Virus record (IMG/VR): IMGVR_UViG_3300033571_026502
Span: 1 to 47,280 of that record
Source: a virus
Direction: 5' to 3' (one strand)
DNA: 47,280 bases
A program made the position numbers and the translations under genes. The notes under the pieces are model-generated. The model searched no databases. It saw only the letters and a list, made by a program, of their open reading frames with translations, and was not told the origin of the DNA. Shown in pieces: positions 3,792 to 25,723 of the stretch; position 1 is the stretch's first letter, and each line of letters opens with the position of its first letter.

Positions 3792-6700
3792 ATGAGTACA
3801 AATAATTTAGATTGCACATTCTACAATAAATCATTTTTTGAAAATTTATATTCACATAATATAGTTTCAATTGATAATAATAATGATAAATTTGAAATAC
3901 ATTTTGATATTAATGGAACAATCTCTAAGATACCAATTGAATATGAAAAGCCCTCTTTGCTTTTAGGAACATTTAATAATGAATATTGGACCCCAATATT
4001 TATAAATCTAAATAATAGTATAATATCAAATAATTATCTTGCATCTGGATTTGTATTATCTTCTGAAAATTTAGGAATAGAATCAATTATTAAATTTAAT
4101 CCTAAGCTTAAAGATTGGACAATTACTGATGGCGCTAAAATGGTAACAGATTGGATACTGACTTCTCCTCTGTATCCATATTTGCCTGAGTATGGACTTT
4201 TATGTTGGGCCAAAACAAAAACATATAGTGCGGATGTTAATGGAATAACTATAGATAAAATACCGTACAATACTGTTGTATATAGCACAACGAATAGAAC
4301 TTATACAATAGATAATCGAACTGTTTCGATTACAACCTCAACTAAATTACTTAAAAAAACAGATGATGTGCTATTAATAATTGATAATGATATTGTTAAA
4401 AAAAATACAGACGGAGAAATTAGACCAACAACATCTAATAAATATTTTATATTAAGCGAATTAATAAAATTTAGCAATAATTCTATAAATAAAAATAATA
4501 TTTTATTTCTAACAAATCCAAATCGAAATAGTAATAATAATACTATATATCATATTAGTCATGGAGAGGCTTATTCCTATTATGAATCAGATAATGTTAA
4601 AACAATTTCTTTAAGAGATGGTATTCCATCACAAACCTATATTTCTCCAGTTTTACATGATATATATAGACAGATATATCATAATCTAACCTTTAAATTA
4701 AAAAAAGAATTTGATAATAAAATACCGAGACCAATTTTTAATAGAGTTCATGGCAGAAAATTTAAAAAAATCTGCTACTTTCTTGCTACACACCCTCAAG
4801 TAGATAGGACCACAGTATCTATACTACAACACCCAGATATTTATGAAATAGTTAATAGCTATATAAATAGTCCAGAGGACACGTCTGATCCCAACAGGAA
4901 TGAAACAAATACTAGACAAGCATTGATTGATATTAGTAAATATTTTAAAGATCTAAACATAGATGAGGTCATTTACCAAGATCCTACTTATATTCCAAAA
5001 AAGCTAATACAAAAATATGGAGCAAAATTACAGTTTGAGGGACCCAATAATTATACTCTAACATATAAAGATAATCTACCTAATGGACCACATCTTAAAG
5101 TATCATCAGATATTAGATCATTAAGTTCAAGAGATATATCAAATAGTACTTTATCCGATAATATTACTGTTACAGTAGGTCCATTTGCAGCAAAAACAAT
5201 TCTAGATTCTGAGCAATCTGTATTAGAGATATCATCAACATTAGATGATAAAAAAACCATTGTTCCATTATGGGATATTCAAAAAACTAGAGTAATAGAT
5301 CAGGGAGCACCATTTACAGCTGGACCAGATATTGAAGTAAAATTTGATGATGCAAGCCATACTCAGAGCAAATTTTTTATAGCTAGAAAACAATCAAGAA
5401 GTGAATTAGCAATAGATCTTAAGGTTGGTTTGAACTTTGATTTGGAGGATTCCGCACTAGCAGGCGTAAATGTTGAATTTAATTGGAAAAGAATATCAGG
5501 ATCAGACTGTTTAAGATTTAGTAATAAAAATTTAACCAATGTTAATAGTGGTGTTATTGCAGAAGGGGATTCTGCGGATCTTAGATTTGAAACTAGTGAT
5601 GATGAGTCGCCTACAATATATATTAAAAAATCAGGAAAATATATTATTCAATTTACTATTAGAACTCCATTCGGGGTAAAAAGTCAAACAGTTAATTTAT
5701 ATATCACTGATGATGATTATTCTAGGCCAAGAAATGAAATTCCAAGAAATGAAAGAGTTGAAGATTTATTACCATTAAGCAAAAATGTTGTGATGGTTCA
5801 TGGCCTAAAAGAGTTTGTTTTTGGTAAACAAGGTATTTTTTGGCCAATATATAGCGATCTAAGCGTATACGAACCAAAATACACATCGGTACGATCACAG
5901 CTTCCTGGTTTAGATAAAAAAACAAGAGTGGGTAATGCTGTTAAGCCTTTAGGATCAATATTAAATAAATTTTTAATTGAGTTTGATAGAGAATCAACTA
6001 AAGCAAAAAAACTGATGGATAGTGATAGAGAGGATAAATTATCTTTTAATATTAATCCATCATCTAATGTTATATCAGAAATAAATAGAATAAAATTAAG
6101 TAATATAAATAGCGAAACTAATCCTCATTGTGAATCAATATACAGAGAAACTTTTGATAATTCATTAACAGATCTGGAACTTGATCAGTCTAAGATTGCT
6201 ATTGATCCTATTACAGAAAAAGAGTTCGAGGTTAAACGACCAAATAAAATTGGCACCACTTCTATTCAGCTATTTAGCAATGAGGAGCCGAAACTAAAAG
6301 ATGCTATGTTTGGTAATACGGTTGAAAATCTTTTTTTTAATTCATTTGATTATGATTCAGATATATACGGTCCGGATGTTTCCGGATTCAGCAACGCGGC
6401 AAATCCTGTTATATGCTATGAAACCTATAGTAAAAATGAGGAGCTAAATAAATTATTAACAATACCCATGCAAAAAGGATTTTTTCATCCAAATTCTGGA
6501 TGGGTTTCACAAGAAACTATTAGAGATAATGTTAATTTTAATAATAGAACATCAATTATTATAGGAGATGGATTAAAAAGAAATTGTAAAACATTTAAGG
6601 GTTTGGGATTTGATGCAATTAATAATAATTTTACTGATGGTAATGTTAAGATTTATAAAAGCAGTATCACACTAAGAACAGAAAAAATCGCACACGATTT

Positions 6701-9700
6701 TTTTGAGATAAAAGAGATTGCTAATCCAAATATTAGCATGAATGAGAAATTAGCAGGTCATGATAAACAAGAAGCAAATGATCATATGCCTAATCATGGA
6801 TATAGAGATTTAAGTGGAAGAGTTACATCATTATACAAATATAATGATGAATTTGTAGTAGCGCCATCTACTAGGCCAGATGGTCTAGTTGGTAGTTATG
6901 ATTATTGTAATGATGCTGTTGATATTGATAGCGACCGAACATCAATCGTTTATGGTTATCCAAAACCGGGTCCAATATTTGTAAAACCTACAGGAATCAG
7001 ATCTGACAGCAATAATCCTTCGGGAATCAGATTTGACAGAGATTTTGGTAGAAAAATTGGAGATCTAGAAATAAAATTAAATTATTTAAATTATATAAAT
7101 CCAAAAGAATTGGTTATATGGTTAACTATTGATGGTCCAGAAGATGTTATCAGATCTATGACAAGAGTAGAAGACCCTGGTCCTGCTGATCCTTTTTATT
7201 TTTCTAAGAACAGAGACGAATATCTTAATGAAATTACTAGCATATCTAATAGTGGTATTCAAAAATTTGCACTAGATTTATTTAATTTGAATGATAATCC
7301 TTTCAAACAAGAAGAAGCACAACGCCCCGCACAACAACAAGAAGGAGGAGGAGTAGGAGGACAAAATCGCACTCCATTAAGGAGTAGTCTCAATTATTAT
7401 CTATATTTATTAAATCAAGATCACATAGATATATCTTTATATAATAATATATTAAAATTTACAGATAATACTTTTACTAATAATAGTAATATTAATGCAA
7501 ATGAATTTATTACAGCTGATACAACTCAAGCAAGATTAAAAAATGGTATAATAGAAATTAATCCAACATTATCTCCATCTGGATATAGTGATGAAGAAAT
7601 AAGTAAATATAAAACTATTATTAATTCAAATCAACTATCAAGCTATATACCAGCTAAATTTAGTAAATTTAAAAATATGCCATTGTTTCAGCAGTATGAA
7701 GACCCTAGGGATCCTAAAGCGCGTAACTCTTCTAGTATTACATTTACATTAAATATAGCAGTTATAGGAGAATCGGATGATAGTTCAATTTATGATAGGG
7801 TTTTATCAACAGATAATATTATAAATATCAATAGTGTAAAAACTAAATCGATATCTTCTATATTAACAAATAGTTTATGCTCTTGGGAGATTATACTACA
7901 TAACGATAAAAGCTTACTTAATTATGAAGACAAGGATGTTTTTGGTCAAATTGATTATAGATCAGAAACTCCAAGATACGAAGGATATAATTTTATTGCA
8001 AAAATTCCATCAGGAATTATTCCTCCTATTAATAGAGATGCTCCGAACAAATCCATATACGATCTTACTAAATGTTTTTATAGTAGAGAAAGTATTACTA
8101 GTCCAAGAATATATCCAACGCCTCAGTTAAGCGTAAATCCTATTGCATATTTACCATCGTTCTCATTAGTTGGAGAAATAGCTTCTGCTGTTGGAATAGT
8201 TGGTCAGTTAAATCTTCAAGCCGCTAGTTTTTTTAATTTTTTTAATGATCTTCGTAGAATAAATTTATCTGAAGAATTTAATAGAGAAATATATATTCCA
8301 AGATACACAGATTTTCCCACAGGAAGAAGCGATAAAGCTCTAGTTAGTATATCAAAAGATAACATAGTATGGTTCAAACTAGAAGCTGGTATATTAAGAT
8401 ATAATAATTGTCCAATATTTAAAAAGAAAAAATACGTATATAGACATGTACATTATTTAAATGAATTTAAAAATCTATGTAAATTTACGCTCAATAATAT
8501 TAATGATATATCAATTTTAATAAATTATAAAACAAAAACTATCAAGCCGATTGTTTCACAAGTTTCTGGCTACAGCTTAACAATAGACAACATAAAAGCA
8601 AATACTAAGGAGTTATTAGATACAGTCAAAACCAAGATATATGAGCTACATAATAATATTAAATCATTGACTGAATCTCAAAATCCCGATCAAAATAGAC
8701 TTTCTAATCTACAGCAAACACTATCAGAATATAAAACACTACTTAGAATAATTGGACCAGAAGGAATAAAACAAGATGATATTATTAAATTTGAAACCAC
8801 AACAACAGATCAAGAATCAGGTGTCCAAACCACAACCATATCATATAATCTAGTTAAGGACGATGATTCATTATTAGAATTTACCGATTTATATACTTTG
8901 CTTGAACATAATAAATCATTATTTATAGACAATAATTTAACTAGAATACATGAATCACTAGAAAACTATCCCTTAACATTAACAATAGTTTCTAATGTCA
9001 CAAGCCAAGTGCCGGAAACATCATCTATTGTGTCAATAAAAGGAATAAGAGCGTATAGCGTATATAAAAATGATGAATCAGTAGAAATTTTTACTGCTAA
9101 ACAATTATCCGAAAGCGATAATAATCAAATTAATACTATTAACCAAACAATATCAGAGAAAAAACAAAGATTATCAGATGCAATTAGTAGGCAACCTCAG
9201 AATCAAGAAAATATTTCTAGACTTAGTAAAGAAATTCTTGATTTAGAAAATACAATATTTTTAATTAAACATGATAAAACTGAAAATAAAATCATAAATA
9301 AAGGAATTATTAGAAATAAAAAATCATATTCAACAATTATTGCATTAGAGAATCCAGTAAAAGATAAATCAATATTAGTTATTAAGCCATCTGATAATAG
9401 AATTATTGCTTGTGATAATGATTATTTTGCAATAGAAGATAATAACGAAATATTTAATCCATGGTCTTTTGTAAATCAAACAGAATTGATTAACGATAAA
9501 ATTGCTAAACCGTTAACAAATATTTATAATGCTGGTATGTATGGTAGTGGTTCTATTAGTAATAATTCATTAATACTTTATGATCCAGAAATTATAAATT
9601 ATGTAAAAGATTTTATAGAATATCTATATGGAAATATGGATAAAGACGATACTTTTAAAGATGACTGTATCATATATAATGACAATGTAAAATATTCAGC

Positions 9701-11141
9701 ATTGATAAATAAAATTTTTACATTTGGATCAATAGATACTAGTATGCTTACTAAAAAATATGATAGCTATATCAAAATGAAACCTAAAAATACTAATACT
9801 TTTCAATTTCAAGATATTTTAGATATATTTAATAATATATTAACATATGAAAAATATAATGTATTTTTTAAAGAAGAAGCTTTAAAGTTTTTAGTAGAAG
9901 GGTCATTGAACATAGATCTATCCACACTACCACAAAATAGTGGGACTATAGAATTTTCAAATCATGCCACAACATCCATTGTATATAGCGCAGAAAATCT
10001 TGATCAGTATGATCAAATATTAGAAAGAGTAGAGAGTAGTGGTATTCCATTGAATATAACAAATAAACAAAATTTAATAAAAAGTAAACTATCAGAGATT
10101 AGTTCGATATCAAATGAAAATAACACATCAAGAAGAACAGAGATAGAGGAAGAAATCAAATCTTTAAAACAAGACATAGCAAAACTGCATTTAGAATATA
10201 ATAAATTATCATATTATGTAGAAAATTTTAATAATAATAATCCAGAAAATAAAATACTTGGAAATATAGTACTAAGTACTACAACAAATGAAGATGGATC
10301 ACTATCTATTAAAGAAGAAGCTAGTGATGATTTATACATATTAAATATAGATGCTGAGCAAGGATGCTCCCTAGATACTGATAAATTACCAAAAATATTA
10401 GTACAAATTGAATACGAATGTTTCAGCGTTCTTAGTCCATTTTATGTTGACCCATTCAGATTTTGTCCCGGTGTTAAGGGTGGTGTTCCTCAAACAAAGT
10501 TTGGAGATTATACTATTGATATTGAACAAACAAAAACAACCTATACTTTATCAGAAAGCAAGATAGAAGAATTAAAAACTGAAAATGATCATCCTAATTT
10601 GGTATGGGGTAGAAGAAGAGGATCATCGACAAGGACATTTTTTCTTAATGGACAAGATAATAGAGGAGGTATAGTTAAAGCAACTTATGTATATATAATT
10701 CCAAACTATGTACCAAATCCACCAATTGATTCAAATGGAGAATTAATAAATAAAGTAAAATATCTTTTTAATCTAAATACTACTGATGAAATATTTATTG
10801 ATTTTAGAAAAATAAATAGAAATTTACGAAATATTGATCCCGTATATCATAAATATGTACCAACTGTTGATGGATTATTAGTTAAAAGTTCAAGCTTATT
10901 TCCTGGCGGACCAATAGATAATACATTAAAAGTTTGGGAATGTTATGGAATTCAGAATGGCTCTAAATTACCACTACCAATTAATTTTAAATGGATGAAT
11001 TTTGTTAAATATATGACTTTTTATAATCAATATTTAATTACTAATAAAGCTATTGATGAGCCAATGTTTGATCTAAATCAAGGCTTAGACTCAATTAAAG
11101 TAAGAGATGAAATGGGGTTAATTCCTTATGATTATAAATGA
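3792..11141 (+). CDS. Giant phage structural protein, 2449 residues, with Ig-like and coiled-coil segments
   Basis: Starts one base after the preceding stop and ends with TGA. I recognise no enzymatic domain. At about residues 530-645 there is a PKD/Ig-like beta segment (GKYIIQF then VNLYITDDD). A Gln/Gly-rich linker lies near 7300-7370 (QEEAQRPAQQQEGGGVGG). Three helical heptad-like segments are visible at about 8620-8760, 9120-9270 and 10070-10240, each with an E/K/L/I pattern typical of a coiled-coil hairpin and each embedded in beta-rich, Asn-rich sequence. Its length and its pairing with another giant gene suggest a tail fibre, baseplate wedge or other large virion component. Composition matches its neighbour. 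The exact role is unknown. Confidence 0.7.
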   Translation: MSTNNLDCTFYNKSFFENLYSHNIVSIDNNNDKFEIHFDINGTISKIPIEYEKPSLLLGTFNNEYWTPIFINLNNSIISNNYLASGFVLSSENLGIESIIKFNPKLKDWTITDGAKMVTDWILTSPLYPYLPEYGLLCWAKTKTYSADVNGITIDKIPYNTVVYSTTNRTYTIDNRTVSITTSTKLLKKTDDVLLIIDNDIVKKNTDGEIRPTTSNKYFILSELIKFSNNSINKNNILFLTNPNRNSNNNTIYHISHGEAYSYYESDNVKTISLRDGIPSQTYISPVLHDIYRQIYHNLTFKLKKEFDNKIPRPIFNRVHGRKFKKICYFLATHPQVDRTTVSILQHPDIYEIVNSYINSPEDTSDPNRNETNTRQALIDISKYFKDLNIDEVIYQDPTYIPKKLIQKYGAKLQFEGPNNYTLTYKDNLPNGPHLKVSSDIRSLSSRDISNSTLSDNITVTVGPFAAKTILDSEQSVLEISSTLDDKKTIVPLWDIQKTRVIDQGAPFTAGPDIEVKFDDASHTQSKFFIARKQSRSELAIDLKVGLNFDLEDSALAGVNVEFNWKRISGSDCLRFSNKNLTNVNSGVIAEGDSADLRFETSDDESPTIYIKKSGKYIIQFTIRTPFGVKSQTVNLYITDDDYSRPRNEIPRNERVEDLLPLSKNVVMVHGLKEFVFGKQGIFWPIYSDLSVYEPKYTSVRSQLPGLDKKTRVGNAVKPLGSILNKFLIEFDRESTKAKKLMDSDREDKLSFNINPSSNVISEINRIKLSNINSETNPHCESIYRETFDNSLTDLELDQSKIAIDPITEKEFEVKRPNKIGTTSIQLFSNEEPKLKDAMFGNTVENLFFNSFDYDSDIYGPDVSGFSNAANPVICYETYSKNEELNKLLTIPMQKGFFHPNSGWVSQETIRDNVNFNNRTSIIIGDGLKRNCKTFKGLGFDAINNNFTDGNVKIYKSSITLRTEKIAHDFFEIKEIANPNISMNEKLAGHDKQEANDHMPNHGYRDLSGRVTSLYKYNDEFVVAPSTRPDGLVGSYDYCNDAVDIDSDRTSIVYGYPKPGPIFVKPTGIRSDSNNPSGIRFDRDFGRKIGDLEIKLNYLNYINPKELVIWLTIDGPEDVIRSMTRVEDPGPADPFYFSKNRDEYLNEITSISNSGIQKFALDLFNLNDNPFKQEEAQRPAQQQEGGGVGGQNRTPLRSSLNYYLYLLNQDHIDISLYNNILKFTDNTFTNNSNINANEFITADTTQARLKNGIIEINPTLSPSGYSDEEISKYKTIINSNQLSSYIPAKFSKFKNMPLFQQYEDPRDPKARNSSSITFTLNIAVIGESDDSSIYDRVLSTDNIININSVKTKSISSILTNSLCSWEIILHNDKSLLNYEDKDVFGQIDYRSETPRYEGYNFIAKIPSGIIPPINRDAPNKSIYDLTKCFYSRESITSPRIYPTPQLSVNPIAYLPSFSLVGEIASAVGIVGQLNLQAASFFNFFNDLRRINLSEEFNREIYIPRYTDFPTGRSDKALVSISKDNIVWFKLEAGILRYNNCPIFKKKKYVYRHVHYLNEFKNLCKFTLNNINDISILINYKTKTIKPIVSQVSGYSLTIDNIKANTKELLDTVKTKIYELHNNIKSLTESQNPDQNRLSNLQQTLSEYKTLLRIIGPEGIKQDDIIKFETTTTDQESGVQTTTISYNLVKDDDSLLEFTDLYTLLEHNKSLFIDNNLTRIHESLENYPLTLTIVSNVTSQVPETSSIVSIKGIRAYSVYKNDESVEIFTAKQLSESDNNQINTINQTISEKKQRLSDAISRQPQNQENISRLSKEILDLENTIFLIKHDKTENKIINKGIIRNKKSYSTIIALENPVKDKSILVIKPSDNRIIACDNDYFAIEDNNEIFNPWSFVNQTELINDKIAKPLTNIYNAGMYGSGSISNNSLILYDPEIINYVKDFIEYLYGNMDKDDTFKDDCIIYNDNVKYSALINKIFTFGSIDTSMLTKKYDSYIKMKPKNTNTFQFQDILDIFNNILTYEKYNVFFKEEALKFLVEGSLNIDLSTLPQNSGTIEFSNHATTSIVYSAENLDQYDQILERVESSGIPLNITNKQNLIKSKLSEISSISNENNTSRRTEIEEEIKSLKQDIAKLHLEYNKLSYYVENFNNNNPENKILGNIVLSTTTNEDGSLSIKEEASDDLYILNIDAEQGCSLDTDKLPKILVQIEYECFSVLSPFYVDPFRFCPGVKGGVPQTKFGDYTIDIEQTKTTYTLSESKIEELKTENDHPNLVWGRRRGSSTRTFFLNGQDNRGGIVKATYVYIIPNYVPNPPIDSNGELINKVKYLFNLNTTDEIFIDFRKINRNLRNIDPVYHKYVPTVDGLLVKSSSLFPGGPIDNTLKVWECYGIQNGSKLPLPINFKWMNFVKYMTFYNQYLITNKAIDEPMFDLNQGLDSIKVRDEMGLIPYDYK

Positions 11142-11499
11142 AGATTCTATTTTCTGTAGTTTTGTACAAACAGATTCATATACTTATGAATGTTATAAAT
11201 GTGGAATAAGTTTGGTAGTACAAGATAAAATAGAAGAACCTCCACTTATCCCATGTTCGGCCGGATTGGCTAAATATTCTGCTGGTGATGTGAGAAATTT
11301 TATTTCTAATAACACATCAGCAAATATAGAGGATTTATGCTCAGAGGAAGAAATACAACAACGACACACTATTTGTAAAGGTTGTGAATTCTTTTCTAAT
11401 AATACTTGTACAGAATGCGGCTGTGTTCTTAGCAGAGATAAAATTTATCTTAATAAGTTAGCTATTAAGAACCAATCTTGTCCCAAGAACAAGTGGTAG
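11128..11499 (+). CDS. Small zinc-ribbon protein downstream of structural genes
   Basis: 123 residues; the start overlaps the giant gene by 14 bases, so translation is probably coupled. Cysteines are arranged as CYKCG (about residues 22-26), an isolated PCSAG, then CKGCEFF, CTECGC and a terminal SCPKNKW. The CxGC...CxxCGC...CPxxKW pattern is a recurrent small phage protein type found near tail genes; its function is not established. It is the last plus-strand gene: its TAG (11497-11499) directly abuts the stop codon of the convergent minus-strand gene, with no spacer and no clear terminator. Confidence 0.75.
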   Translation: MIINEDSIFCSFVQTDSYTYECYKCGISLVVQDKIEEPPLIPCSAGLAKYSAGDVRNFISNNTSANIEDLCSEEEIQQRHTICKGCEFFSNNTCTECGCVLSRDKIYLNKLAIKNQSCPKNKW

Positions 11500-11823
11500 T
11501 CAATCATCCTTCTTTTGATACTTGTGCCAGCCTTTGTTGGGTAGATAATTCCCATTGTCATCTTTTCTTTTTGGAAACAATGTGCCACCCTTTTTATGCT
11601 GACCGAATGATAAAATAGCCCCGCAGTCCGCACATCTTAGTTCGTAGTAATCATTGCCATCCACATTTCTAACAATAAATTTAAGATTGGTACTTCCGCA
11701 TAATCCACATTTTTCTTCGCTAAAAATTTCTTGAATTAGTGCTAATTCTTTGAAAATTTCTTTTTGACCGCTGCCTTCGAGTTCAAATGTTAATTTATCA
11801 TTAGCTTTGTAGGTGACTTTCAT
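11500..11823 (-). CDS. Zinc-finger protein next to annealing protein
   Basis: 107 residues from the ATG at 11823. This start is chosen because GGAAG lies 5 bases before it; an in-frame ATG at 11835 would overlap the upstream gene and has no visible Shine-Dalgarno. A four-cysteine zinc finger is clear (CGLCG, then CADCG about 25 residues later), followed by a basic tail (FPKRKDD, HKYQKK). It sits two bases after the Rad52/ERF-like gene, so a role in DNA binding or recombination is a reasonable inference but not shown. Small zinc-finger partners beside phage annealing genes are common. Confidence 0.7.
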   Translation of the reverse strand: MKVTYKANDKLTFELEGSGQKEIFKELALIQEIFSEEKCGLCGSTNLKFIVRNVDGNDYYELRCADCGAILSFGQHKKGGTLFPKRKDDNGNYLPNKGWHKYQKKDD

Positions 11824-11825
11824 AA

Positions 11826-12554
11826 TTACTTCCATTCGTTAGAGTAGCCCAATATATCTTTTGGAATATCCGAAATATTGGTTTGATATTTAGATAACAA
11901 TCTTATTATATCAACAGCTTTGTCATGATGCAAACTGTATATATTCTTATGTTCTAAATTATTTGACTCTAATAGTTTAAGCACATTAATATTTAATCTT
12001 TGAGCAATAACATCTATAAAATTAATCTGATTATTGGTTATTTTATCAACCGTATTAGCATCAGGATGATCATCAATTTCATTAGTAAGCTCCTCTGCTG
12101 CAACAACCTTTCTTAATCTTAGAGCCCTTCTTAGTGCTCTGCCTTCGGCTCTGGTTTCTGCCACAGCAACGGGATGATTCCTATAAACCTTGTCGCAATT
12201 ACCCCAGTAAACGTCCGCAGAGCCATCCACAACTACAGTATTTAAATTAGTAGTGTCACCAAAGGCTTGATTTAAATAGAGCGTTAGTGTGTGAGTTACA
12301 GTTGCTCTTTTTTCATTATCCGGACTAGGAGATTGTACAACATTAGTGGTTGATTGTATTATTCTACAATCCATAACTTTTTCAATAATTCTTCGTAAAC
12401 CGTCTGTGGTAGGATTTCCTTTGATTTTTTCATCATCTGACAACATACTCAACACATAATCTGTCCATTCAATATCATGAATAGATGGTTTTGCAACCGT
12501 CTCTTGAGTTTCTTCCACAACATTTTCAGATTCTGTTTTTTTAGCCTTTGCCAT
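11826..12554 (-). CDS. Putative single-strand annealing protein (Rad52/ERF-like)
   Basis: 242 residues. The central part carries a His-Pro-Val-Ala...TRAEGRALRRALRL segment followed by VVAAEEL, a pattern I associate with phage Rad52/ERF-type annealing proteins, which pair complementary single strands during recombination and replication restart. The C-terminal 60 residues (ITNNQINFIDVIAQRL...IIRLLSKYQ) resemble the small helical tail domain common on such proteins. The N-terminus is a Lys/Glu/Val low-complexity extension. AAGGA lies about ten bases before the ATG. The neighbouring zinc-finger and endonuclease genes fit a recombination module. The family assignment is by motif memory only. Confidence 0.55.
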   Translation of the reverse strand: MAKAKKTESENVVEETQETVAKPSIHDIEWTDYVLSMLSDDEKIKGNPTTDGLRRIIEKVMDCRIIQSTTNVVQSPSPDNEKRATVTHTLTLYLNQAFGDTTNLNTVVVDGSADVYWGNCDKVYRNHPVAVAETRAEGRALRRALRLRKVVAAEELTNEIDDHPDANTVDKITNNQINFIDVIAQRLNINVLKLLESNNLEHKNIYSLHHDKAVDIIRLLSKYQTNISDIPKDILGYSNEWK

Positions 12555-12557
12555 AAA

Positions 12558-13358
12558 TTAGTTATCCTTAATAAGTCTTGTTTTACATTCTTGATTAGTA
12601 TTAATATAGTCGATATTTTCTATTAGCTCAGAATAGATCACATCAGCCCTGCTTTTAGAAAAGTCCTTTGTCTGTTTTATTCTTATGAGTTTCCACCCCT
12701 TACCAATAATCAAACCCTCTTTTTTCGCATCATACTTTTTATTCCTATTTAAAGAATCATCACCCCAAACCGGTTCAAAATGACTAGGGCCGTCAACCTC
12801 TATAGCTATATTAAAGGTTGGAAGAAATAGGTCAATCTGCAATTTAGTATTGAGCAGCGTTTGTTCTTTGTGAAACTCAACCTTGTGTCCGTCGGCCAAT
12901 AGTTTGTCCATCAAATACTTTTCTAATTTGGATCCTGTTTTACTAGTTGCCCTAACAGCATCATTTGCCATTTTTAGTATATTATTTTTTGTATCTTCAT
13001 CTAATGATTCCCATCTATCTCTACTTTTAGTTTTTCTATCATTAAGTTCTTCGTCGGACAGTTTATCCCACGACTTCATTACAGAATTACCAATTTTATC
13101 TTTGGTTTTTTGGGGTCTTTGTTGACCTTTTGTTGGGTGTTTATGAGATCCTGTTTCGATAGCATTTTTTTGAGCTTCGCTTTTATCCCTAATTTTAATT
13201 TTAAATTTTACAGCATCTCTTCTTAACTTATTGGCATAAGTATTATATTGTTTTGCTATATTCGCAAAACTTAATTTTTGTTTAAGATACAAATCTTCTA
13301 AAATATTTTTTTTATCAACATCTTTTAGATTGTCATATAAATTGGCAGAATTTTTCAT
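12558..13358 (-). CDS. VSR/DUF559-like endonuclease with NUMOD-like segment
   Basis: 266 residues from the ATG at 13358, which has a strong CGGAGGA Shine-Dalgarno 8 bases upstream; an ATG at 13385 would add nine residues but has no such site. The N-terminal third resembles a helix-turn-helix (KLSFANIAKQYN). A NUMOD3-like segment follows (HPTKGQQRPQKTKDKIGNSV). The C-terminal third is a PD-(D/E)XK/VSR-type core: QIDLFLP, then IEVDGPSHF, a charged helix, then GWKLIRIKQ. This is the layout of phage homing or free-standing endonucleases. Its 5' end overlaps the next gene upstream by 26 bases. No intron or intein is visible nearby. Confidence 0.7.
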   Translation of the reverse strand: MKNSANLYDNLKDVDKKNILEDLYLKQKLSFANIAKQYNTYANKLRRDAVKFKIKIRDKSEAQKNAIETGSHKHPTKGQQRPQKTKDKIGNSVMKSWDKLSDEELNDRKTKSRDRWESLDEDTKNNILKMANDAVRATSKTGSKLEKYLMDKLLADGHKVEFHKEQTLLNTKLQIDLFLPTFNIAIEVDGPSHFEPVWGDDSLNRNKKYDAKKEGLIIGKGWKLIRIKQTKDFSKSRADVIYSELIENIDYINTNQECKTRLIKDN

Positions 13359-20326: not shown

Positions 20327-20354
20327 ATAGTATCGGATGCTCTGGTTTTGTCAA
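20327..20354 (-). promoter_or_regulatory. Sigma70-like promoter of ssb
   Basis: On the minus strand a perfect TTGACA (20354-20349) is separated by 16 bases from TACTAT (20332-20327), about 45 bases before the ssb start. The -35 overlaps the TGA stop of the polymerase C-terminal gene. The -10 sits in the sequence CGATACTATA, which recurs in the gap upstream of phoH. TACTAT matches the consensus at 4 of 6 positions. Confidence 0.65.
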
Positions 20355-21964
20355 GCCGCCGGTACAAAACATTTTTCTACAACAAATCCATCCTTAGTTT
20401 TGGCTCTTGAGCCAGAAAAAACTAATATATTTTCTTCAAACAAATGGTGCTTATATGCTTCATATGTATCGGGAAAGAATATTACAGAATCTAAACTTCC
20501 TGTTTGATCTTCTATGGTCAAAAATGCCATTTCTTTGCCAGGATTTTTTCCTGTTTTTGTTTTAATAATATTTACATATGTTATTTCACCAGCTAGTAAT
20601 ATTTTTTTGGTATTACTCACTATGCTATTTTTAAAATCTTTGCATGTACTATTTGTCATATTAATATTATATGAATCTAATTTTGAACAAGAAATAGCGG
20701 TTCCTAAATAAGATGACTCGCTATCCGCTAGCCATTCAATTTTATCTACTAAAGAATATGGAGGACTAATATATGTGTGCAATAATGCTTGAATTGCTAG
20801 TTTTCTATTTTTATTAACTTTAATATGACTTATAAGAAATTGAAATATATCTTTAAGAGATACTTTTGTATCTGTTAATAATGGTAGTATATAACCTATT
20901 TCTTTGGCCGTTAGTGATGACGACAGTTCAAAATCAAATAGCACTTCTGTTCTATTTTTACCATAAAAATCAATAGCTCCAGCACTTATGATTGCTTTTG
21001 ATGCACTAGAGTTTATTTTATGCAAAACGTAAAATAACATTTGCAAATAATTCATTTTATTAATTGCATAATTTTTATTTATATCTTCTATTTTATTATA
21101 AACAGATAAACCCAAACCTTTTATATCTGTTAATCCAAAATATATTTTATTATCATATATTTCAAATAGCTTATTCATTAATCTTATATCTGGTAAGCAT
21201 ACTTGTATATCCATTTCATTTGCATTTTTAATGAGTTGCTTTATCTCTTGTTGTGGGTCTATCTTGTCCTTAGCAAATCTTAGATACGAACAAAAGAAGG
21301 CTTGTGGAAAATGCGCTTTAGTATATGCAGATAAATACGCATTCATAGCGTAGCTTACTGCATGAGATTTATTAAAACTATATCTTTGACTTTTTTCGAT
21401 CCATCCAAAGATTTCTTGGGCATCTTCTTCATCTACTATATTTTCTTTTTTACACCCATCTAAAAATTTACCTTTAATTTCGGCCATTAATTTAACGTCT
21501 TTTTTACCAATACTCTTTCTCAGAGAGTCGCTTTCTGATAAACTAAACCCGGCTATGTCTTTTGCTATCTGAATAGCCTGTTCTTGATAGATTAATTCTC
21601 CTAGCGTAGTATTTAGTATCGGCTCTAAAGACGGATGAAAGTAGTCGATACTCTCTTTAAGATTTTTCTTATCTATATAGTGATTTGTTACACTTTTACC
21701 ATCTCTCATAGCCTCAAGAGATCCTGGGCGAAGAATAGAAATAAGAGCAGATAATTGTTCTATATTTTCTGGTTTTAGCTTTTTAGCAATACTTTGTCCT
21801 AGTCTACTTTCTAATTGAAATACTCCTTTGGTATTTCCGTCAGATAGCAATTCCCAAGTTTTTTTACAATTCAAATTTATATTCTCTATTTTGGGAGAAA
21901 ATATAATTTTATTATCATCAAAACACTCAAAAGAACACCCGCAACTAAATTGTAATCTAGACAT
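20351..21964 (-). CDS. dnaE: DNA polymerase III alpha subunit, C-terminal half (fingers to OB fold)
   Basis: 537 residues. After a short N-terminal segment with CGCSFEC (residues 8-14), the fingers domain starts at TKGVFQLES (about 45-53), the canonical entry after the palm. SLRKSIGKK and RYSFNKSHAVSYA (about 194-205) are conserved fingers motifs. The C-terminal 100 residues form the OB fold (ILLAGEITYV...EMAFLTIEDQTGSLDSVIF). It lacks the PHP domain and palm, which are encoded by the separate gene at 22824-24668; together the two pieces total about 1150 residues, the normal DnaE size. Its ATG overlaps the exonuclease stop by 8 bases, so translation is coupled. The two proteins must associate to polymerise; that is inference. 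Confidence 0.9.
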   Translation of the reverse strand: MSRLQFSCGCSFECFDDNKIIFSPKIENINLNCKKTWELLSDGNTKGVFQLESRLGQSIAKKLKPENIEQLSALISILRPGSLEAMRDGKSVTNHYIDKKNLKESIDYFHPSLEPILNTTLGELIYQEQAIQIAKDIAGFSLSESDSLRKSIGKKDVKLMAEIKGKFLDGCKKENIVDEEDAQEIFGWIEKSQRYSFNKSHAVSYAMNAYLSAYTKAHFPQAFFCSYLRFAKDKIDPQQEIKQLIKNANEMDIQVCLPDIRLMNKLFEIYDNKIYFGLTDIKGLGLSVYNKIEDINKNYAINKMNYLQMLFYVLHKINSSASKAIISAGAIDFYGKNRTEVLFDFELSSSLTAKEIGYILPLLTDTKVSLKDIFQFLISHIKVNKNRKLAIQALLHTYISPPYSLVDKIEWLADSESSYLGTAISCSKLDSYNINMTNSTCKDFKNSIVSNTKKILLAGEITYVNIIKTKTGKNPGKEMAFLTIEDQTGSLDSVIFFPDTYEAYKHHLFEENILVFSGSRAKTKDGFVVEKCFVPAA

Positions 21965-22655
21965 TAATAAAAGAATCCTTAAACTTAACTTTTTTACTCA
22001 AATTTCTGTGTAGCTTTAAAAATCTTATCATAATCTCTGCTGTATCTTTAACGTCTTTCAGAGCATCGTGAGCACCATCTTTTGATATGCCCAAATAATC
22101 TCTAAGATTATCTAATGTATAATTCTTAAGCTCATTGTTTCCTTCAAACCAATAGAATACCAAATTCATTATATCCACAACATCTCTGGGATAAAATAAT
22201 GAAGTAGCACCCTCTTTATTTACATTATTATATTTTTGACTTAATCTATTAATGATTTTCATATCAAATCTATTAATGTTATAGCCAGCAGCTATAGGAG
22301 CAGAAAAACAGCTTTTCTTTGATTTAGTTTTTGTATGATACAGCTCAAGATAAGACACAAATCTTTCCCAACTATTTTTTTGGTCAGGATATTTCTTCCA
22401 ATCGCTGAGAATATCTTCTTTAGAACATCCCCTAACTTTAGAATGAAAATCTAAAACATCGCTATCTCCATATGTATAACTACTATCTTCCGAAACTTTT
22501 TCTGGCTTAAGATTAATATTAAATTCAGAATTGTTAATTATTTCTAAATTTATTGGATCAATCATTATGGCCGCTATCTGAACCGGACTACAAACCTCTG
22601 GATCTGATCCATCGGTTTCCATATCAAAAACACAAATTTTTTGCAAATTAGGCAT
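21957..22655 (-). CDS. DEDDh 3'-5' exonuclease (DnaQ/epsilon-like)
   Basis: 232 residues from the ATG at 22655; a longer frame upstream merely overlaps the small gene before it. ExoI is VFDMETDG (Asp11 and Glu13), ExoII is YNINRFDMKII with its Asp, ExoIII is HDALKDVKDTAEIM, which makes it DEDDh. It probably proofreads for the split polymerase: it lies between the two polymerase halves and overlaps both the small gene before it and the dnaE-C gene after it. A weak GGTGG precedes the start, so reinitiation after the upstream stop is likely. A 3'-5' exonuclease located elsewhere in nucleotide recycling is the alternative. Confidence 0.88.
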   Translation of the reverse strand: MPNLQKICVFDMETDGSDPEVCSPVQIAAIMIDPINLEIINNSEFNINLKPEKVSEDSSYTYGDSDVLDFHSKVRGCSKEDILSDWKKYPDQKNSWERFVSYLELYHTKTKSKKSCFSAPIAAGYNINRFDMKIINRLSQKYNNVNKEGATSLFYPRDVVDIMNLVFYWFEGNNELKNYTLDNLRDYLGISKDGAHDALKDVKDTAEIMIRFLKLHRNLSKKVKFKDSFINV

Positions 22656-22827
22656 TAACCACCACTGATGTTCCTGGTTGAATATATGTTGTATTATTAC
22701 TATCATTAGATGCTTTTGCATTAATTGTGCGACAGCAGCTAACTCTAATATCTTCTGTCTTTACAAACTCTTGACCATTATAAAGAAAACGATCACCCAC
22801 TTTTAAATCTTGAAATAATTTATTCAT
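22648..22827 (-). CDS. Small conserved phage protein between polymerase halves (59 residues)
   Basis: Found by reading the gap: ATG at 22827, TAA at 22648-22650. The start overlaps the stop of dnaE-N (ATGA) and AAGGAG stands 7 bases before it. The protein begins MNKLFQDLKVGDRF, continues YNGQEFVKTEDIRVSCC, and ends with an Asn/Thr-rich strand and PGTSVVVNA. The LKVGDxFxYNGxE...CC pattern is a recurrent small all-beta phage protein; no function is established. Its placement between polymerase halves and ahead of the exonuclease could mean a polymerase accessory, but that is inference. Confidence 0.8.
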   Translation of the reverse strand: MNKLFQDLKVGDRFLYNGQEFVKTEDIRVSCCRTINAKASNDSNNTTYIQPGTSVVVNA

Positions 22828-24668
22828 AATTGAACTCCTTGACTATATAGAATATCTGAAATATGCATGGCTTTGTCTAAGAACGCTAGTCCTAGAACGT
22901 CAAATTTTATTACCCCAAGAGCCTCTAAATCGTGCATCTCCATTCCAGCAATTATTTGGTCATTTTTATTGTCGTATATCATAGGACAAATGTCCTCCAA
23001 ATTTTCTTTTGAGATAACAACACCAGCCGCATGTTTGGACTGATTGGATTTTGTACCCTCCAATCTTATAGCCTGTTCGAATCTTTTTGCAAGCGGCCCA
23101 TCTAGAGTATTGTCATCTTTTATAGAACACCACTCTTTCAGTTTATCAGGATTGTTTTCTAAAGCCCACCGTATAATACTGGATTCTCCGGTCTCTTCTT
23201 TCATTTCTTGCAATTCATCTGCTATTTTTGCTTCGTCAGGAATGTATTTTGTTATATTATTCATCTCTTCGAAACTAATATTACCGTATACTCTTAGTAC
23301 TTCTTTTAGAGCTCCTCTGCCTTTCATCGTATTAAAAGTTAACATTTGAGCAACTCTTTTTTCTCCATACTTTGATTTTACATATTCGATCACATTATCT
23401 CGTTTATTGATAGGAATATCTATATCAATATCCGGTAATGATACTCTATCTTTTGTTGATCTGCCAATATTATAAAATCTTTCAAAAATTAAATTATATG
23501 GAATAGGATCTATATTAGTAATTCCAATCAAATAAGACACCAAACATCCAGCAGCAGATCCTCGTCCTGGGCCGGCTAACCAATTATTATTCTTTACATA
23601 ATTAACTATATCTTGAACAATAAGAAAATAACTACTTAAACCAGCACCTTGAAGAACATCTAGTTCATTCTTAATTCTATCAACATAATATTGCTGATTA
23701 TCTTTGTCTACTCTTGGTCCTATTTTATCTCTCCACCCGTTTCTGCATAATTCTCTTAAATACTCATCCGGCTTAAGATTATTAGGACAATCAAATATCG
23801 GCAAAAGAGGCTTATTGGTTATGTCGTAATTCTCACATAAATCTGATACATAGTTGGTATTTTCTAATTCTTCTGTTTGATGAATATCTAATAATTCCTC
23901 ATAAGATGGAATATGATACTTATCAGACTTGAAAAAACATCCCATAGGAACAGATTCATTGGAGATAATTTTTCTATTTATTTCTGATAATGTTAATTTT
24001 AGATTATTACATATTAGAATTCTTTGATCAACAGAATCTTCTGTCCTGCAATAATGAGCATCCGGAGTTGCAATTACTTTAGTGTTTGTTTTAGAAGCTA
24101 TTCTTCTAATAGTCTCCGTTAGCTCAACTTGTTCTGTGCAGTTTTCTTGATCTATTAATTGTGCTTCTAAATAGAAATTATCCTTGCCAAAAATATCTTT
24201 CATTTTTGATACAAAATTTACTCCTATACTCATCGGATTTTCTTGATCTTGAATCAAATTGGCTAGTGTTGATCCAAGATGACCACAAAATCCAATAATA
24301 TTACCATCTAATAGATTCTTTAGATGATCAAAATCCAATCTGGGTTTGTGATAGAAAAAATCAGGATTATTCGATTTTGAAACAATCTTGATTAATGTTT
24401 TCCATCCATCATAATTTTTAGCTAATAGTAAAAAGTGAGATAACTTACTATTATCTTTAGTTTTTTCTGAGGGATCTTTTTCTGATACGTAAATTTCACA
24501 ACCAAGAATAGGCTTTATACCATTCTTCTTCATGAGAGAATGAAATTGTACAGCACCTGAAATTGTGCCGTGATCGGTTAATGCACAAGATTTTGCTCCA
24601 ATCTCAATGCATCTTTCTGCGATCTGCTGCGGCTTGCTTAGTCCATCCAAAAGTGAGTAATGAGTCAC
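22824..24668 (-). CDS. dnaE: DNA polymerase III alpha subunit, N-terminal half (PHP and palm)
   Basis: 614 residues counted from a GTG at 24668. PHP domain: ALTDHG, ILGCEIYV, and ATPDAHYC are metal-site motifs. Palm: LPDIDIDI near residue 412 and IKFDVLGL near 589 supply all three catalytic aspartates. The protein stops about 20 residues after the last Asp, where DnaE normally runs on into the fingers. The usual first PHP motif (HxHS/T) is encoded just upstream (24672-24713) in the same frame but is cut off by TAA at 24669-24671. A good TAGGAG site precedes the upstream ATG, none precedes the GTG. So the true product may involve readthrough or bypass, or be a restart product lacking two metal ligands. 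Confidence 0.88.
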   Translation of the reverse strand: MTHYSLLDGLSKPQQIAERCIEIGAKSCALTDHGTISGAVQFHSLMKKNGIKPILGCEIYVSEKDPSEKTKDNSKLSHFLLLAKNYDGWKTLIKIVSKSNNPDFFYHKPRLDFDHLKNLLDGNIIGFCGHLGSTLANLIQDQENPMSIGVNFVSKMKDIFGKDNFYLEAQLIDQENCTEQVELTETIRRIASKTNTKVIATPDAHYCRTEDSVDQRILICNNLKLTLSEINRKIISNESVPMGCFFKSDKYHIPSYEELLDIHQTEELENTNYVSDLCENYDITNKPLLPIFDCPNNLKPDEYLRELCRNGWRDKIGPRVDKDNQQYYVDRIKNELDVLQGAGLSSYFLIVQDIVNYVKNNNWLAGPGRGSAAGCLVSYLIGITNIDPIPYNLIFERFYNIGRSTKDRVSLPDIDIDIPINKRDNVIEYVKSKYGEKRVAQMLTFNTMKGRGALKEVLRVYGNISFEEMNNITKYIPDEAKIADELQEMKEETGESSIIRWALENNPDKLKEWCSIKDDNTLDGPLAKRFEQAIRLEGTKSNQSKHAAGVVISKENLEDICPMIYDNKNDQIIAGMEMHDLEALGVIKFDVLGLAFLDKAMHISDILYSQGVQL

Positions 24669-24670
24669 TT
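24651..24670. repeat. Inverted repeat at the dnaE-N stop/GTG junction
   Basis: AAGTGA-GTAATGAG-TCACTT: a perfect 6-bp stem with an 8-base loop. It covers the GTG and two bases of the in-frame TAA, so the hairpin would form directly after the HxHS codons in the mRNA. The position is notable given the interrupted motif; a role is inference. Confidence 0.5.
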
Positions 24671-24713
24671 AGGAATGGACATGCAGAGGCGTATAGCCTT
24701 TGGACACGTCCAT
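24669..24713 (-). other. 14-codon leader carrying the first PHP motif, ended by in-frame TAA
   Basis: The ATG at 24713 has TAGGAG 8 bases before it, next to the stop of the nuclease gene. It encodes MDVSKGYTPLHVHS and then TAA, in frame with the following dnaE-N sequence that continues VTHYSLLDG. In DnaE proteins HxHS/T is followed directly by xYSxLDG, so this leader is clearly the polymerase N-terminus, separated by nine extra bases that include the stop. Confidence 0.75.
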
Positions 24714-24724
24714 TTTTAAAACTC

Positions 24725-25723
24725 CTATTCTGTTGATCCGGGGGATTTATACGAGCCAAACGAGTGATTTGGCGACTTGTATCTTTCTACCACATAGTCC
24801 ATACCATGCAAGTCCAAATCATGACGAATTTGTTCACATTTTGTCATATACAAGCCGTGTTGACTAATCTGATTATCTCTATACTCAATAATTGGATTTA
24901 TCGATGTATTCTCAAATGTTGTTTTGCCAAAATGGCACAGTTTTGTACACATCCAACATTTATTTAATCTTGGTTTTTTAGTAAGTTTTATAATCTCAAA
25001 TTTTCTTCTTAGCATATCTTCTGTTGCAGCCAAATCTTTTTTATCAAAACAAATTGAGAAAGGTCCGCCGTCATTGATAAAGTAGATAGAGAATATAATA
25101 TGATCTATGTGAGGATATAGCTTACTTATGGCATAATGGTAAATTCTTAATTGTGGATCTTTTTCTAATTTCTCTAGAGTCTTTTCCTCTCCGGTTGCCC
25201 AATCAAGTCTTCTACCAGTTTTCCAGTCTATTATCTCTATCGTATTTTTATTGGCCAGAGTAATTAGGTCTATTGTTCCTTTTAATCCTAAATGCCCAGA
25301 TAAATCGCCATCTGGTGTTTTAAAATCATATTTAGCCCAAGGTTTTTCTATTATAAAATCAAAATGCTGCTCTGGAGATATTATATCTCTGTTTCTAGGA
25401 TCAAACATACCATTGTTAAATTCTATTGCTTTATAAACCCAGGACTTGCAATCTCTCAAATCTTTATCGGACCATTTATGGTGACTATTAGCAGAAGTAT
25501 AGAATTTATATGTTTGATTAATAATTGTGTCTAAATCATAGTTTGATACATCTACTTTGCCTATAGTATCATCATCAAAAAATGGCACATTATCTTGTTG
25601 GCACTTTTTGATTACTGCCAAAATTTCTAAAACCTTATGGGTAATTGTGCCTTTATCTGCCTTTTGTCCTGATGGCCCTCTCCAGCCGAGAACATATTCA
25701 ATAAAATATTGTTGTTCGCACAT
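24725..25723 (-). CDS. PD-(D/E)XK nuclease, RecB/Cas4-like
   Basis: 332 residues from the ATG at 25723. The core reads GTIDLI, then IEIIDWKTGR about 15 residues later (D...D/E-x-K), then QLRIYHYAI, the standard RecB-family order. CWMCTKLCHFG near residues 255-265 could help hold a metal cluster as in Cas4-like nucleases, although a four-Cys set is not complete in what I see. The frame is open upstream for about 19 more codons without an ATG, encoding TTYFRSSSYNTHG; such an SSS...MCEQQYFIEYVLG start is what this family normally has, so a non-ATG start (ATT at 25768, with AAGGGG about 9 bases before) is plausible. It overlaps or abuts the dNMP kinase stop. Likely acts on DNA ends in replication or recombination. 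Confidence 0.8.
   Translation of the reverse strand: MCEQQYFIEYVLGWRGPSGQKADKGTITHKVLEILAVIKKCQQDNVPFFDDDTIGKVDVSNYDLDTIINQTYKFYTSANSHHKWSDKDLRDCKSWVYKAIEFNNGMFDPRNRDIISPEQHFDFIIEKPWAKYDFKTPDGDLSGHLGLKGTIDLITLANKNTIEIIDWKTGRRLDWATGEEKTLEKLEKDPQLRIYHYAISKLYPHIDHIIFSIYFINDGGPFSICFDKKDLAATEDMLRRKFEIIKLTKKPRLNKCWMCTKLCHFGKTTFENTSINPIIEYRDNQISQHGLYMTKCEQIRHDLDLHGMDYVVERYKSPNHSFGSYKSPGSTE

Follow-up and report, generated by a model that had tools for sequence, protein, structure and literature searches.

How a phage might make its replicative polymerase from a gene that is divided in two, and whose first part is interrupted by a stop codon, is the question raised by one locus in a viral DNA sequence of 47,280 nucleotides (IMG/VR record IMGVR_UViG_3300033571_026502, positions 1 to 47,280; hereafter the window). 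The original prediction was of a DnaE-type polymerase III alpha subunit in two pieces, with a small protein and an exonuclease encoded between them. Here we consider first the split, then the interruption in the first piece and the ways in which it could be read.

A DnaE polymerase encoded in two pieces

All features described here lie on the minus strand of the window. The four genes are placed as originally predicted: dnaE-N ends at 22824 and is followed by a conserved small protein of 59 residues (22648–22827), a DnaQ-like DEDDh 3'-5' exonuclease (21957–22655) and dnaE-C (20351–21964). The coupled overlaps claimed for them are also present, with 4 nt between dnaE-N and the small protein gene, 8 nt between the small protein and exonuclease genes, and 8 nt between the exonuclease gene and dnaE-C. 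A Shine-Dalgarno-like AGGAG (24722–24726) precedes the ATG of dnaE-N by 8 nt. The exonuclease start that is conserved in relatives is the ATG at 22655 rather than 22721; the product matches RNase_T in Pfam, and D11, E13, D131, H196 and D201, the DnaQ-like DEDDh residue set, are invariant in 20 of 20 aligned sequences. Pfam assigns PHP and DNA_pol3_alpha to the N half and finger, HHH_6 and OB to the C half, which begins with a Cys-containing N-terminal extension. Across the two chains, Pfam, PHROG, PDB and fold matches together recovered every feature of a DnaE-type Pol III alpha subunit (PHP, palm with catalytic Asp residues, fingers, HhH and OB), and fold comparison matched the predicted C half, for the greater part of its length, to structures of Pol III alpha. 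The small protein had no Pfam match; it is predicted to be a compact small beta-barrel (pLDDT 92), with weak and non-significant best fold matches to EF-P/eIF5A (E 0.17 and higher).

The two pieces do correspond to one DnaE. They tile the PHROG DNA polymerase profile phrog_405 (positions 51–606 and 622–1059 of 1190), and on T. aquaticus DnaE (2hpi) the N half ends at residue 642 and the C half starts at 647; conserved order, catalytic residues and fold give good support to a break at the palm/fingers junction. The FNKSH motif lies at residue 197 of dnaE-C, as had been stated; TKGVFQLES, which had been placed just after the dnaE-C start, begins at residue 45. The observation that no intein residues are visible at the junction held for the window and for 25 aligned C halves, and we reject a split intein at the break.

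The division into two genes is genuine and conserved. N half, small protein, exonuclease and C half follow one another in this order in 129 loci brought in by two protein searches, and the halves are separate in all 129 of the loci having both halves and the exonuclease, which rules out a chimeric or faulty assembly as the origin of the arrangement. A contiguous relative differing only by a frameshift, one of the two findings that had been named as fatal to the prediction, did not appear: outside the clade, relatives mostly have a single-ORF DnaE, and these contiguous homologues are so distant (about 23–35% identity) that the split is not a frameshift of one locus. A first scan of cellular genomes gave no match, and a second returned mostly contiguous DnaE of low identity together with one split locus, lacking the interruption described below, on a Flavobacteriales MAG contig. 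Searches of ten large related contigs (157–224 kb) returned one DnaE palm family match each and no match to a family A or B polymerase. The Cys-containing extension of the C half is absent from three basal sequences and present in the others, and so probably arose later than the split. In sum, there is good comparative support for a two-chain DnaE broken between palm and fingers whose operon also includes a proofreading-type exonuclease.

A split Pol III alpha is not without precedent in jumbo phages, and the present form is new in variant only. In group 2.2 jumbo phages the catalytic subunit is contained in two proteins (PMC7824862), but that alpha subunit is a minimal version whose genes lie far apart and which is accompanied by a family B polymerase, whereas the DnaE described here is nearly full-length, with PHP and OB domains, and is encoded in one operon with the exonuclease between its halves; a family A or B polymerase alongside it was not found. 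The cyanobacterial split-intein DnaE is likewise encoded by two genes; in contrast to it, the present DnaE has another break point, no intein at the junction and both halves in one operon.

A stop codon within PHP motif I

The N half had been taken as open. Read from its ATG at 24713, it gives MDVSKGYTPLHVHS, then a stop, then VTHYSLLDG; the stop is a TAA (24671–24669) directly 3' of the Ser14 codon, within PHP motif I (PLHVHS-stop-VTHYSLLDG). ORF1 (24669–24713), which consists of MDVSKGYTPLHVHS and the TAA, contains HVH, the metal-ligand motif of the PHP domain. ORF2 (22824–24662) runs from CAU (HYSLLDG) and encodes the rest of the PHP domain, the palm and the thumb, with the catalytic Asp residues. 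Uninterrupted relatives have PLHVHSHYSLLDG at motif I, and in these non-carriers PLHVHS is followed directly by HYSLLDG or MYSLLDG. We infer a fused ORF1–ORF2 product from this homology.

The interruption is shared by 70 other viral contigs, 55 from one pattern scan and 15 from a relaxed codon pattern, giving with the window 71 records and 46 distinct sequences from many metagenomes. A further 16 pattern matches were judged to be chance and set aside, and in cultured phages there was no convincing match. In all 46 distinct sequences the stop is TAA or TAG and directly follows a Ser codon. The insert is 8, 9, 10, 11 or 12 nt long, so that all three frames occur, and skipping it restores motif I (HVHS followed by H/M/E-Y/F/D-SLLDG) in every carrier, the main ORF encoding the second part of the motif in every insert class. 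Coding constraint on ORF1 and ORF2 is shown at the level of sequence: PLHVHS is invariant as protein in ORF1, with synonymous variation in the P, L, first H and S codons, including CTN and TTR leucines. Some columns are set by the scan patterns themselves, and their invariance is partly ascertainment, a bias that is less or absent in the relaxed scan and in 18 distinct carriers (the window and the protein-search loci). Carriers also have an extra spacer and an AGGAG-like site of their own upstream; most non-carriers have a dnaE ATGA that overlaps the stop upstream of it.

A proposed reading across the interruption

We consider it highly probable, on sequence evidence, that the first DnaE chain is made by programmed translational bypassing, and that the locus encodes a two-chain DnaE replicase with a DnaQ-like exonuclease. 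In the window the candidate take-off codon is UCC (Ser14, 24672–24674) and the candidate landing codon is ACU (24663–24665), the 9-nt insert consisting of UAAGUG and ACU. Among the 46 distinct sequences the last three bases of the insert are UCN in 28, ACU in 9, GCU or GCC in 8 and UUU in 1, with C as the middle base in 45. The match to take-off is imperfect, because 18 distinct sequences have ACU, GCU/GCC or UUU instead of UCN. Such landing codons fit re-pairing by a tRNA-Ser that would be tolerant at the first position, and they are a weaker match than the exact one of T4 gene 60. Shine-Dalgarno-assisted landing was considered and is unsupported, the gaps of the second hairpin type described below having no such site. 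With its 13–14 codons, ORF1 could hardly place a nascent-peptide signal deep in the exit tunnel as gene 60 does, and this, like the imperfect landing match, counts against bypassing.

Two predicted RNA hairpins flank the take-off codon. In SL1 (24675–24713; AUGGACGUG paired with CAUGUCCAU, 9 bp) the start-codon region AUGGACGUG pairs with CACGUCCAU immediately 5' of the take-off codon, the hairpin ending at the codon that precedes take-off. SL2 (24646–24674) starts at the take-off codon and consists of UCC/GGA outer pairs and an AAGUGA/UCACUU stem, with the landing site in its loop; in a second type of SL2 the stop is UAG and lies within the stem, and one pair is seen as AU, UA, CG and GU. Over 34 sequences 98.3% of cells are paired, falling to 29–51% when the partner is slid by 1–3 columns, and the covariation score was reached by none of 500 shuffles (shuffle counts are not probabilities, and some columns are fixed by the pattern scans). 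As in gene 60, there is a 5' stem-loop, with 98.7–100% of SL1 cells paired and G-C to A-U double changes, and a predicted, covarying take-off stem-loop at the stop codon. The element of the window has a folding energy of −26.2 kcal/mol (z = −5.67), which no synonymous recoding out of 2000 equalled; mean folding energy is −26.5 ± 2.3 kcal/mol in carriers and −7.3 ± 2.7 kcal/mol in non-carriers, without overlap. The RNA model (R1) scores sequences from outside its building set that have different stems, and finds only the dnaE 5' end strongly; the element occurs once per genome.

In the mechanism that we propose, a ribosome starting at 24713 meets UAA after 14 codons; UCC would then occupy the P site and UAA the A site, and SL2 would hinder termination there. 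The peptidyl-tRNA-Ser would release UCC and the ribosome would advance over 5–9 nt plus the landing codon, with SL1 refolding behind it, until the tRNA re-paired at a Ser or near-Ser codon inside the SL2 loop. Decoding would then resume at CAU, so that the chain would read HVHS-HYSLLDG with its PHP domain intact, and the resulting N chain (PHP, palm, thumb) would pair with the C chain (fingers, HhH, OB).

Four other readings were weighed against bypassing. Decoding of the insert, by stop readthrough or conventional frameshifting, would leave 3–4 extra residues in the PHP motif, and we regard it as improbable. A stop codon followed by a 3' hairpin is a typical setting for readthrough or frameshifting; moreover the 9- and 12-nt classes would retain frame 0 under simple readthrough, which is a point against bypassing. 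However, the insert classes differ in frame, so that neither readthrough nor a single frameshift direction can serve them all. The 8-, 10- and 11-nt inserts would need differing shift directions, and on this reading each class would add different residues between HVHS and HYSLLDG, where no uninterrupted relative has extras.

Slightly less probable again is that ORF1 is a regulatory leader peptide and that dnaE-N is re-initiated downstream, without PHP motif I. The TAA of the window is followed directly by GTG (24668), a possible restart codon that also counts against bypassing, and some carriers have an ATG at the start of MYSLLDG, but in several the stretch of the main frame from the last stop to the HYS motif contains neither ATG nor GTG nor TTG. 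ORF1 ends exactly in the PHP motif, with synonymous variation only there, and re-initiation would cost the protein its HVH metal ligands although the rest of the PHP domain is conserved. Loss of the insert from DNA or RNA ahead of translation, through some minimal form of excision or splicing, would explain the precise restoration of the motif in every class and the inverted repeats at the insert site. It is nevertheless very unlikely: coding sequence from both sides is part of the hairpins, the position of the stop codon is constant, as in gene 60, and removal of 8–12 nt matches no splicing system known to us. A pseudogene or sequencing error at the 5' end, which a stop inside a conserved motif resembles, is extremely unlikely given 71 records across many metagenomes, covariation and one polymerase per genome.

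Relation to known bypass systems and spread among phages

Programmed ribosome jumps are known from few genes, and to our knowledge the only natural bypass in bacteria or phages to have been studied thoroughly is that of phage T4 gene 60. There the take-off codon is preceded by a 5' stem-loop and followed by a stop, a second stem-loop forms at take-off, and the landing codon is matched (PMC5009743, PMC11194080). The dnaE element resembles it in the stop directly after the take-off codon, the 5' stem-loop, the take-off stem-loop containing the stop and a putative landing codon that is matched or near-matched, and in residing in a phage replication gene whose family is also split (gene 39/60 in T4). 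The two differ in gap length (50 nt in gene 60, 5–9 nt plus the landing codon in dnaE) and in the take-off and landing codons (Gly and Ser, respectively). Unlike gene 60, the dnaE element places its landing site inside the take-off hairpin loop, and it has an ORF1 of only 13–14 codons, a landing codon that is not always cognate, and a gap that differs between relatives in length and frame. Synthetic "stop-hops" in E. coli constructs likewise involve a stop flanked by similar codons and a short distance (PMC5009743), whereas the dnaE element is natural, structured and conserved. According to the same 2016 review, no natural in-frame stop-hop was known and shorter counterparts of bypassing had long been presumed (PMC5009743). 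The byps of Magnusiomyces mitochondria are also short non-coding inserts in coding sequence with imperfect codon matching, but they are largely context-independent and occur in 81 places, in contrast to one structured site in one gene. Bypassing has also been proposed for another phage gene, the terminase of Streptomyces phage Hau3, where it is linked to a UUA codon. The literature searched, which was incompletely covered, yielded no account of a DnaE gene read by bypassing.

Mapping the 36 carriers onto a tree of 125 N halves requires 20 changes, against a mean of 31.6 for shuffled labels, and L093, the sister of the window, has no element. Because of this patchy distribution and the sister without it, the element appears to have been gained, lost or transferred many times. 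Between distant carriers high identity is confined to the element, being 92% over 18 nt at YSLLDG and 67% just after it; a wide co-conversion tract around the element was not seen, identity being near background within about 20 nt downstream. Homing pressure on the element is plausible, because inteins or endonuclease ORFs occupy other conserved motifs of related dnaE genes, and such pressure has been proposed for T4 gene 60 (PMC5009743). No nuclease specific to the motif I site was identified. We suggest tentatively, and with somewhat less than even confidence, that this is a frame-independent, hairpin-guided and very short bypass, with re-pairing that is often near-cognate in the take-off-hairpin loop, and that the element moves between phages and possibly shields the conserved PHP motif from homing endonucleases of the kind seen to attack dnaE elsewhere.

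Several of the related loci contain other insertions. Inteins at PGRG^SAAG in dnaE-N (L034 5090–6362, L051 4391–5675, L061 5120–6313 and L077 5123–6453) consist of an N part and then a separate nuclease-like ORF, and resemble fractured genes with split inteins. Intein-like inserts in dnaE-C at FNK^SHA (L093 11245–12703, with a LAGLIDADG ORF by Pfam, and L151 11244–12408) lie near, but not at, the cyanobacterial split-intein site, and dnaE-C inteins at RPG^C were seen in L123 (7928–8724, with an HNH-like stretch) and L128 (10849–11684). In L051 an ORF resembling a free-standing homing endonuclease, with no Pfam match (6389–7102), lies exactly at the split, between dnaE-N and the small protein. 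In L111 a DUF1559 prepilin-like gene and a ThyX gene (11133–12215 and 12494–13171) are found between the exonuclease and dnaE-C; we take the DUF1559 family to be associated with Planctomycetes, possibly a hint to the host of L111. In Bacillus phage vB_BpsS-140 (L232 3022–6638) the dnaE region is unannotated and its frame is broken between PHP and palm, either an error or another case of recoding.

Between the two results, we regard the putative bypass element, for which the sequence evidence is strong and from which we infer the mechanism, as the stronger and more important. On a practical level, automatic gene callers will misplace the start of these polymerases and so miss the PHP metal-binding motif. 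With the split DnaE, the known split polymerases gain a two-chain replicase that is nearly full-length and encoded in one operon. Dozens of natural variants of one gene, differing in gap length, frame, stems and landing codons, amount to a natural experiment on the features that bypassing requires, and the family could reveal how ribosome bypass works and evolves.
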